Position numbers and translations under genes: made by a program
The notes under the pieces: model-generated
The model's input: only the letters and a program-made list of their open reading frames with translations
What the model was told of the DNA's origin: nothing
The model's database searches: none
Source: Subtercola boreus
Lineage (GTDB): Bacteria > Actinomycetota > Actinomycetes > Actinomycetales > Microbacteriaceae
NCBI RefSeq assembly: GCF_006716115.1
Contig: NZ_VFOO01000001.1
Coordinates: 1,674,001 to 1,738,000, forward strand
DNA length: 64,000 nucleotides
Reading direction: 5' to 3'
Shown: positions 1 to 29,244 of the stretch, one piece after another
How positions within the stretch are numbered: the first letter of the stretch is position 1
How the letters are laid out: every line of letters begins with the position of its first letter

Positions 1-4546
<4,546 letters not shown>

Positions 4547-26927: not shown

Positions 26928-27740
26928 TCAGGAACCCTGGAGCAGCTTCAGCGACATCGAGTCGACCGCGCCCGCGATGACCTCGCTCTCGGCCCAGCGC
27001 TGCTGGAGGGCCGCGAGGAGCGCTGCGAGCCGGTCGCGGTCGAGTCCCGGCACGAGAGTGAGTTCGACGATCACCTCGGTGCCGACGAGCCGCGCTGAGG
27101 GGTCACCCGCGCGCAGGCGAATGCTCTGGATGTCGCGTTCCCCCGCCGCGGAGCCGGCGAACGCCCGGGCGACCGCCGTGTCCCCGAGCGGGGAGACCCA
27201 CGGCGTCGCCTGGGCGATCGCCCAGACGGCAGGGCGGCGGAGCGCGAACTCGGTGGGCGAGGTCGGGTCGAGGATGATCAGGTCGGTGCTCTCGCCCGCA
27301 GCCGCCAGGGCAACCCGACGCGCGGGAGTCGGAATGGGGCGGGCCTTCGGGTTCCAGCGGGCCATCGCCTCAGTGGAGGTGAAGGCGGGCTGCACTGCAC
27401 GGCCGTCCGGTGCCGTGACCGTGACAATCGAGAGCTCCTGGGTCTTGTCGACCGTACGCCCGTGATCGTCGACGCCCGTCTCGCCGGCGTGGGCGAGCAG
27501 TGGAACGAGGAGCCGGACGTCGCGCACGGCATCGACGACCGCAGTCTGGGCGGCGAGGAGGTCGGCAATCGACCCGGCTGTCGGCTGCGAGGCCACCAGC
27601 TCATGGAACCGGTTCAGCGCCGCCACGAGCAGCTCCGGCGCCGCTCCGTCGTCGCCGGCGAAGGTGGTGGGGTGGGCATCGAAAGTGCGGCCCGCCCACG
27701 GCTGGCCGGCCGAGTCGGCGGGGGTCAGAGCATCCGTCAC
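26928..27740 (-). CDS. SseB family protein
   Basis: 270 residues from GTG at 27740, which overlaps the hisA/priA stop (GTGA). The N-terminal half has [12 protein letters not shown]...[24 protein letters not shown], and the middle has [29 protein letters not shown], the SseB N-terminal domain pattern seen in actinobacterial proteins fused to the his operon. A C-terminal beta-strand region follows. Biochemical role unknown. The longer upstream frame overlaps hisA and is rejected. Confidence 0.85.
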
Positions 27741-28477
27741 TCGGAGGCGACCGCCAGCGCCTCGACCAGGGTGAATGCGCCGGCGTAGAGTGCGCGCCCG
27801 ACGATCGCCCCTTCCAGGCCTGCGGGCACGAGGGCGCGGAGTTCGATGAGGTCGTCGAGGCTCGAGATGCCGCCTGAAGCGACCACGGGCTTGTCGGTGC
27901 GCTCCATCACCTGGCGGAGCAGGTCGACGTTCGGGCCCTTGAGCGTTCCGTCTTTCGTGACGTCGGTGACGACGTAGCGCGCGCATCCCGCGTCTTCGAG
28001 CCGCGCCAGGACCTCCCAGAGGTCTCCCCCGTCTTCGGTCCAACCGCGGGCCGCGAGCGTGGTGCCGCGGACATCCAGCCCGACGGCGATCGCGTCACCG
28101 TGGCGGGCAATTGCCTTCGCCGCCCATTCGGGGTTCTCCAGCGCAGCGGTGCCGAGGTTGATGCGGGTGGCGCCGCTCGCGAGGGCGTTCTCGAGGGAGG
28201 CGTCATCGCGGATGCCGCCCGAGAGCTCGATCTTGATGTTCTTCGCCTCGGCGATCACCCGGCGGATGACGTCGACGTTGCTGCCCCGCCCGAAAGCGGC
28301 GTCGAGGTCGACGAGATGGATCCATTCGGCGCCCTGGGCGACCCAGTCTGCTGCGGCGTCGGCCGGGTCGCCGTGGTTCGTCTCGGTGCCGACCTGGCCC
28401 TGGGTCAGCCGCACCGCCTGCCCGTTCGATATGTCGACGGCGGGAAGGAGTTCGAGCGCGGGGCCGTTCTCGGTCAT
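27737..28477 (-). CDS. priA: phosphoribosyl isomerase HisA/PriA
   Basis: (beta/alpha)8 isomerase converting ProFAR to PRFAR in histidine synthesis; in many Actinobacteria the same enzyme (PriA) also serves TrpF in tryptophan synthesis. 246 residues from ATG at 28477 with AGAGGA upstream. The catalytic aspartates are in LLPAVDIS (D15) and [14 protein letters not shown] (D176), and phosphate loops are ELSGGIRDD and [10 protein letters not shown]. The bifunctional role is inferred from taxonomy. The frame open further upstream is dominated by the intergenic repeat and is not used. Confidence 0.93.
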
Positions 28478-28515
28478 CAATGTCCTCTGGATCTTCAGTC
28501 TGCGGTAGTGGGTCT

Positions 28516-28580
28516 CGATCGAAACCCCGAAAACTGTCGGTAAGTCACCTTCAGAGCGACAATTTTCGGGGTTTCGATCG
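28516..28580. repeat. 24-bp inverted repeat between hisH and priA
   Basis: Left arm 28516-28539 (starting CGATCGAAACCCCGAAAA) and right arm 28557-28580 are reverse complements except at one position, with a 17-nt loop. In a minus-strand transcript the one mismatch becomes a G-U pair, so all 24 bp can form. There is no U-tract, so it is not a standard terminator. It lies in the 134-nt gap inside the his operon. Confidence 0.9.
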
Positions 28581-28611
28581 GGCGATGGGGGTGGGTGGGG
28601 GGTGCGAGGGG

Positions 28612-29244
28612 CTAGAGGGTGGTCAGCCAGTTTTCGAGGAGGTGCATACCGGCGTCGCCGGACTTCTCGGGGTGGAACTGGGTCGCAGAAAGGGGGCCGT
28701 TCTCGACGGCAGCGATGAATGCGCCGCCATGGTCGGCCCAGGTGACGGAGGCAGCCGGCAGGGGCGGTTGCACCTCGAGCTCCCAGCGCTGGGCGGCATA
28801 GGAGTGCACGAAGTAGAAGCGCTCGTCGGAGATACCCGCGAAGAGGCGCGACGACTCCGGTGCCCGAACGGTGTTCCAGCCCATGTGCGGCAGCACATCC
28901 GCCGCCAGCTCCTCGACCGTACCGGGCCACTCACCGAGACCCTCGCTGTCGACACCACGCTCGATTCCGCGGGAGAAGAGCACCTGCATGCCGACGCAGA
29001 TGCCGAGCACGGGGCGGCCGCCAGCGAGGCGCTTGTCGATCAGGTCGCCACCGCGCACCGCCTCGAGGGCGGAGATCACGGCACTGAAGGCGCCGACGCC
29101 GGGCACGAGCAGCCCGTCGGCCTCAGCGACAGCGCGGCGGTCGGCGGTGAGCTCGACGGACGCCCCGACCTTCTCGAGCGCTTTGACGGCGGAGTGCACA
29201 TTGCCACTGCCGTAGTCGAGAACCACGACCCGCTTGGTCGTCAC
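28612..29244 (-). CDS. hisH: imidazole glycerol phosphate synthase, glutaminase subunit
   Basis: Class I glutamine amidotransferase that supplies ammonia to HisF. 210 residues. It starts [18 protein letters not shown]; the nucleophile cysteine is in [15 protein letters not shown] near 86, and the His-Glu pair is in [11 protein letters not shown] near 192. It overlaps hisB by 4 nt. hisF is not in the window. Confidence 0.97.

Follow-up and report, generated by a model that had tools for sequence, protein, structure and literature searches.

A long hairpin between hisH and priA

The window (the whole stretch of DNA analysed here, 64,000 nt from Subtercola boreus) carries hisH and priA (hisA-trpF) on its minus strand, and the 134 nt gap between the two genes, 28478–28611, houses a long hairpin. 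In the order of the his transcript, the features are:

28612..29244, minus strand: hisH, the upstream gene (TIGR01855)
28581..28611, minus strand: C-rich, G-poor tract from the hisH stop codon to the hairpin
28557..28580, minus strand: hairpin arm lying 5′ in the his transcript
28540..28556, minus strand: loop, 17 nt
28516..28539, minus strand: hairpin arm lying 3′ in the his transcript
28478..28515, minus strand: spacer of 38 nt between the hairpin and the start of priA, with neither a T-run nor a sigma-70-type match
27737..28477, minus strand: priA (hisA-trpF), the downstream gene (TIGR01919)

The two arms, of 24 nt each, are 96% complementary and lie 17 nt apart, exactly the geometry and position that an earlier note on this DNA had given. 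Watson–Crick pairs form at 23 of the 24 stem positions, and the lone mismatch, C28534/A28562 on the plus strand, becomes a G-U pair in the minus-strand RNA, as the note had also said. Its description of the repeat as fully paired only in the sense transcript is correct for the 24 bp themselves but does not extend to stability: the minus strand folds at −43.2 kcal/mol (z = −8.45 against shuffles) and the plus-strand RNA at a nearly equal −42.8 kcal/mol, partly because a U-G pair (28515/28581) and a C-G pair (28514/28582) are gained just outside the stem. Thirty simulated 64 kb sequences with the dinucleotide transition frequencies of the window yielded no comparable repeat (20 nt arms, at most one mismatch, loop of 5–40 nt), and no other of the window's 15 listed inverted repeats is a near-perfect hairpin of this size.

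Neither a U-tract nor a terminator-like match was found at the hairpin, which bears out the earlier view that it is not an ordinary terminator. A scan for sigma-70-type promoters, the one promoter type covered, gave no match in the scanned region between the hairpin and priA. At the Rfam gathering threshold the window contains rRNA only, and the hairpin itself drew nine miRNA-type hairpins, all below threshold. The 16S and 23S rRNA genes lie at 1–4545 on the minus strand, the 23S gene being truncated by the end of the window. Located 3′ of priA, the minus-strand ORF 26928–27740 (270 aa) has no NCBIfam match.

A dispersed family with fixed geometry

A similarity search of the window's own genome (G000) with the 69 bp element returned 25 matches over both strands, corresponding to 13 places. 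When 12 Subtercola genomes were searched with a pattern, the same geometry was found at 10 places in G000, 21 in G008, 14 in G010 and two in G011, with no match to the reversed control pattern in any of the 12. A second stem type, with identical ends, loop edges and spacing, occupies nine places in G000, 12 in G008, 14 in G010 and one in G011; the pattern used to find it fixed the arm distance beforehand. A dispersed repeat, one of the options listed in the earlier note, is thus supported by copies at many other genes. The left arm of the his copy (28516–28539) reads GAAAACTGTCG, a form frequent in G008 and G010, and the other type 1 copies of its own genome mostly read GAAAGTTGTCG or near forms.

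At three loci hairpins of type 1 and type 2 are neighbours within one gap (L160 2501–2636, L174 2501–2648 and L175 2328–2565), separated by 6 and 18 bp in the orthologous loci L160 and L174. Stems made of half type 1 and half type 2 escape the first patterns by design; a separate search for such hybrids, allowing up to three mismatches, found none in the 12 Subtercola genomes.

A scan of 84,980 species, in which the loop could vary from 13 to 21 nt and from which records close to G000 may be missing, returned 30 stretches. Of these, 23 come from two S. boreus strains and Subtercola sp. Z020, and the loop is exactly 17 nt in all 23; we take the other seven for chance hairpins, judging from five that were inspected. 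A covariance model built on 28 copies gave matches at E ≤ 0.01 in 11 of the 12 Subtercola genomes: 56 in G008, 37 in G010, 35 in G000, 24 in G011, 13 in G006 and 0–7 in the rest, mostly with both strands counted. The lone weak matches in the remaining genomes may be due to chance.

The plan of the element extends beyond the genus. At E ≤ 1e-4 the model matches 51 of 299 Microbacteriaceae genomes, four of them Subtercola, and in a sample of the class it matches nine of 296, of which five are Microbacteriaceae and four are not. Other genera of the family have mid-stems of their own on the identical plan. An alignment across genera (15 chosen rows, five from Subtercola) has 96.4% of its cells paired and changes on both sides at 18 of 22 pairs, but this covariation is partly circular because a covariance model rewards pairing. 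A firmer sign that these are real families is a mid-stem common to the copies of one genome, as in G276, where all nine fetched copies have a left mid-stem of their own in common.

The obvious comparison is with REP and REPIN sequences, described in the sections cited as short dispersed palindromes whose inverted half-units keep a constant spacing, which occur as several types in one genome and which show compensatory changes (PMC3733652, PMC3116915). The Subtercola family is also dispersed, mostly extragenic and at convergent or tandem genes, with several types and compensatory changes, and its copies likewise consist of two inverted half-units at a fixed distance (stem 22–24 bp, loop 17 nt, 65 bp in all). 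It differs from the GTAG/CGTC-tagged, RAYT-associated elements in that its ends carry no tag beyond background and its genomes no RAYT, that its copies number dozens instead of hundreds, and that the stem type can differ between strains at the same site. The family thus looks and spreads like REP/REPIN but fails two defining features, the tag and the RAYT. We recognised no published description of this palindrome family in the open-licence literature.

Location of the copies

To describe the genomic context we used 90 Subtercola copies of the two stem types (35 from G008, 28 from G010, 23 from G000 and two each from G011 and G006). These counts exclude one of the nine own-genome second-type places, the copy in the G010 ATPase gene (see below), the one second-type copy of G011, all but two places each of the model matches in G006 and G011, and the weaker model matches in G000, G008 and G010; the G008 copy at C41:26464 was entered as type 1 but is type 2 by its stem. 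Genes were called by a codon-usage caller trained on the window and applied unchanged to other genera. As controls we took further gaps, each at least 65 bp long, from these loci and from the window.

Between convergent genes lie 57 copies, between tandem genes 23, between divergent genes five, and inside called ORFs another five, so that 57 of the 85 intergenic copies are convergent and 80 of all 90 are convergent or tandem. The 165 control gaps divide into 15 convergent, 87 tandem and 63 divergent. The convergent excess has an odds ratio of 20 (p = 2e-21, a value that is too small because the 90 copies include orthologues). In 13 other genomes, 43 copies show the same tendency (20 convergent, 14 tandem, six divergent and three inside, against control gaps of 5, 26 and 18; odds ratio 8.8, p = 4e-5).

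This distribution bears on the proposal that the element is an RNase III processing site, a 22–24 bp duplex whose cutting would split the hisH and priA messages. RNase III substrates are duplexes of about two helical turns, and a stem of about that length is indeed maintained across the copies. At convergent genes, however, there is no message to separate, so the excess there is left unexplained, as is the C-rich tract beside the copies that is described below, and we consider the proposal unlikely.

Of the five copies inside ORFs, two (in G000 and G011) lie clearly within a gene for a metal P-type ATPase; the gene calls for the other three are weaker, and the two of these ORFs that were tested had no Pfam match. 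In the ATPase gene (PF00122, PF00702), which spans L150 1688–3979 on the minus strand, or C1:3714588–3716876 of the own genome, the copy is in frame, in a variable loop; the orthologues are L246 in G010 and L190 and L247 in G011. The stem type of this in-frame copy differs between G000 and G010. The ATPases of G001, G004 and G005 have a short loop in place of the hairpin copy, and visual inspection of the aligned proteins suggests that the G002 protein is a decayed copy. Several more P-type ATPase-like matches cluster at about 115,000–147,000 on the second contig (C2, ∼165 kb) of the own genome. In-frame placement recalls the Rickettsia palindromic elements (RPE), which the part cited here reports both within protein-coding genes, in frame, and between genes (PMC3733652). 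The likeness, confined to one ATPase gene in G000, G010 and G011, is one of placement, and the Subtercola copies differ in being mostly intergenic, with in-frame copies proven in one gene.

Pairing is kept in the stem and not in the loop

Shuffling restricted to the 28 Subtercola rows, a small test, gave weak results by most measures, and for this reason we used a stratified permutation test, in which the right halves were swapped 1000 times between copies that agreed in genome and in stem type (86 of the 90 copies, in strata of at least five). Within-copy stem pairing was 1627, against 1536.7 ± 11.1 expected, a value reached by none of the 1000 permutations. Loop pairing was 257, below the 282 ± 11 expected, and position 25, at the loop edge, pairs at chance. 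Between same-type orthologues with an identity of 45/65 or more, a Watson–Crick pair was retained in 28 of 43 double changes (p = 3e-5 for an expectation of one third); stem pairs broken by a single change are also common. Since pairing is found in the stem and none in the loop, the kept form seems to be a single-stranded hairpin with an open loop. Descent of sub-families or hairpin-templated repair could imitate the covariation within genomes. Compensatory evolution of stems has a parallel in the terminators of Bacillus cereus, in the portion of that work cited (PMC5381666).

The earlier note had read the G-U pair of the his stem as a hint that the RNA form is selected. Over the 23 tandem copies, 22 stem mismatches are G-U in the sense RNA and 30 are G-U only in the antisense RNA, so the sense-strand G-U was rejected as a mark of RNA selection.

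Could the palindrome instead be a double-stranded DNA site, two inverted half-sites held at a fixed distance for a dimeric protein? The spacing fixed at 17 would suit such a site, and so would the loop edges, unpaired but with a conserved sequence in both halves. But the mid-stem varies freely with its pairing kept within copies, and one site can carry different stem types as a whole, neither of which would be tolerated by a protein that reads the sequence; the copies also sit at gene ends and not at promoters. We therefore think a protein site decidedly unlikely.

Flanking sequence

To the left of the Subtercola palindromes C exceeds G and to the right G exceeds C, an asymmetry that fades over ∼120 bp and is common to copies at convergent genes, at tandem genes and inside ORFs. 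The skew of control flanks is about zero, except for 0.24 at convergent 3′ ends. Upstream of the his hairpin the C-G skew is 0.80 over 40 nt, a stretch that includes the end of hisH. In other genera the C>G tract is weak (0.13–0.16).

At the 23 tandem copies, where the direction of transcription is given, the two sides can be compared: over 75 nt the skew is 0.44 on the sense-upstream side versus 0.19 on the antisense-upstream side (p = 8e-4), and further out it is 0.24 versus 0.06 (p = 6e-4). This direction dependence is the best hint in the sequence that transcription may be involved. In Subtercola the transcribed strand does have, upstream, the C-rich and G-poor tract looked for in a Rho-dependent end, and a C>G tract that stops at a hairpin is what such an end would be expected to show. 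The symmetric part of the C/G flank asymmetry may have a mutational origin. None of 157 downstream flanks contains a run of four T.

A G-quadruplex roadblock is conceivable but was set aside as the main explanation, because the distribution of matches is too uneven. Within 80 nt and on the expected strand, G4-type matches occur left of 8/14 and right of 1/14 tandem copies but left of 9/35 and right of 7/35 convergent ones; matches within 80 nt also occur at 2/5 inside copies on the left and 2/5 on the right, and left of 1/4 divergent copies. Any G4-type match is found in 12 of 116 control gaps.

Turnover between strains

After removal of three cross-matches to neighbours and one weak paralogue, the 27 rows of the G008–G010 comparison leave 23 orthologous sites with a copy in both genomes. 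The stem type is the same at 16 of these and different at seven. Specifically, the flanks of the switched sites are 85–96% identical, with one at 69%, and at one site a single flank matched; two of the seven lie about 1.1 kb apart and may represent one event. At switched sites the alignment fails at the hairpin and, on at least one side, over some tens of flanking bases, although at some of them one flank matches almost up to the border of the hairpin. In the two same-type pairs shown, the alignment is continuous through the hairpin. The gene ends L153/L299, L154/L280 and L279/L173 (G008/G010) have switched stem type between highly similar neighbouring genes.

The his site itself behaves in the same way. 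The hisH–priA gap holds a type 1 copy in G000 and a type 2 copy in G008 and G010, which group with G000 in the his tree, and the other nine of the 12 genomes have no hairpin there. The earlier note had entertained a his element; with copies beside many other genes, that view is not supported. A his-specific attenuator or operator could draw on the hisH–priA position, filled in all three genomes of one clade, and on the pairing of the his copy, the best among the 23 own-genome copies examined, but it has to accommodate a stem type that differs between G000 and its two relatives. It was rejected on the occurrence of the same element at unrelated genes and its absence in nine of 12 Subtercola genomes, and we hold it to be highly improbable.

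Of 11 comparisons with empty sites, three had alignable flanks: at two of them the element is absent together with its skewed flanks, and at the third ∼2.4 kb of other sequence stands instead of the element. RAYT-driven spread was rejected for lack of both the enzyme and the tag. PF01797 (RAYT/Y1 transposase) was found in none of the 12 Subtercola genomes, by a search that was positive in five of 14 control genomes including E. coli, and at the palindrome ends the REP tags GTAG and CGTC occur in 5/180 and 26/180 cases, compared with 3 and 24 of 180 control 16-mers. Target-site duplications of at least 4 bp, at the 65 bp ends or up to 4 bp inside, are not in excess of permuted flanks (one was seen, at one of five offsets), and 2 bp direct repeats at the 65 bp ends show a small excess (16 versus 8.9); both results assume the 65 bp ends, from which the true borders of an insert may differ.

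These data bear on the possibility that the palindrome is idle: a mobile element of the REPIN, MITE or RPE kind without host function, copied by some other enzyme, whose location bias would only record where insertions are tolerated. The many copies, the two sites where presence and absence between strains include the skewed flanks, the in-frame copies in the P-type ATPase gene and the genome-specific mid-stems of other genera would all be natural for such an element. The lack of a Y1/RAYT transposase in the 12 genomes and of longer target-site duplications, the sense-side bias of the C>G tract at tandem copies and the sites kept between species argue against it, and we regard it as the chief rival of the reading favoured below, possible but doubtful. 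The earlier note had proposed that many copies at random sites together with absence in close relatives would mark a mobile repeat: the copies are many and relatives lack them, as a mobile repeat would have it, but the sites are far from random and often common to species. Place alone cannot separate a host signal from a tolerated mobile repeat, because REPs elsewhere show a like preference, being mostly between convergent and tandem ORFs; they have also been proposed to act as RNA, in the sections cited (PMC3733652).

A candidate transcript-end element

The reading that we favour, with a probability of roughly 0.5, is that the his hairpin is one copy of a REP/REPIN-like repeat that acts as a U-less, mostly bidirectional transcript-end element. 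It builds on what can be read directly from the genomes: a repeat family with a biased choice of places, a hairpin kept with its loop open, Subtercola flanks that have a C>G tract but no U-tract, and stem types that differ at orthologous sites. From these we infer that the active form would be RNA and not DNA, that Rho would be used and that priA would be affected. An RNase cleavage or stability element had been among the options of the earlier note, and in kind it agrees with this reading.

In such a mechanism, Rho would load on the nascent RNA at the C-rich, G-poor tract, termination or trimming would follow, and the long hairpin would fix and protect the 3′ end of the RNA. At convergent genes the element would act on both strands. 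In the his operon it would be a partial end or a processing point, which would lower priA and the genes after it relative to hisB–hisH. Complete termination at the his copy is unlikely, because priA starts 38 nt on with no promoter-like match between and would be starved; incomplete termination or processing is likelier. Some observations speak against the transcript-end reading: the C>G tract also surrounds the few copies inside ORFs and is weak in other genera, stem mismatches do not lean towards sense G-U, five copies are divergent, and at least two copies lie in frame inside a coding gene and so cannot be transcript ends there.

Two kinds of known transcript end come close. In Streptomyces clavuligerus, ends termed HS-U-lack are likened, in the part of the report cited, to I-shaped terminators or to hairpin-protected ends of Rho-terminated transcripts (PMC8269248). 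The likeness is a strong hairpin after the gene, without a U-tract, in an actinobacterium; the difference is that those ends are defined by mapped RNA ends and, in the portion cited, form no common sequence family, whereas the Subtercola family is defined by its sequence and fixed geometry. Bidirectional intrinsic terminators are likewise hairpins between convergent genes, but the Subtercola hairpins lack a U-tract on either side, have a 17 nt loop and belong to a repeat family.

A broader and more tentative idea is that these palindromes could be interchangeable 3′-end cassettes in Microbacteriaceae, of fixed geometry, copied without RAYT and with the whole stem swapped at orthologous gene ends. 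Selection for transcription end would then keep the site and the shape of the hairpin, while the stem sequence would be replaceable as a unit. If stems truly swap as units, small palindromes would spread and persist without the RAYT enzymes that are thought to drive the spread of REPs. How transcripts end without a U-tract in high-GC actinobacteria is an unsettled question, for which dozens of convergent gene ends with a fixed-geometry repeat are natural test sites, and orthologous ends with the hairpin, without it or with the other stem type provide built-in comparisons.
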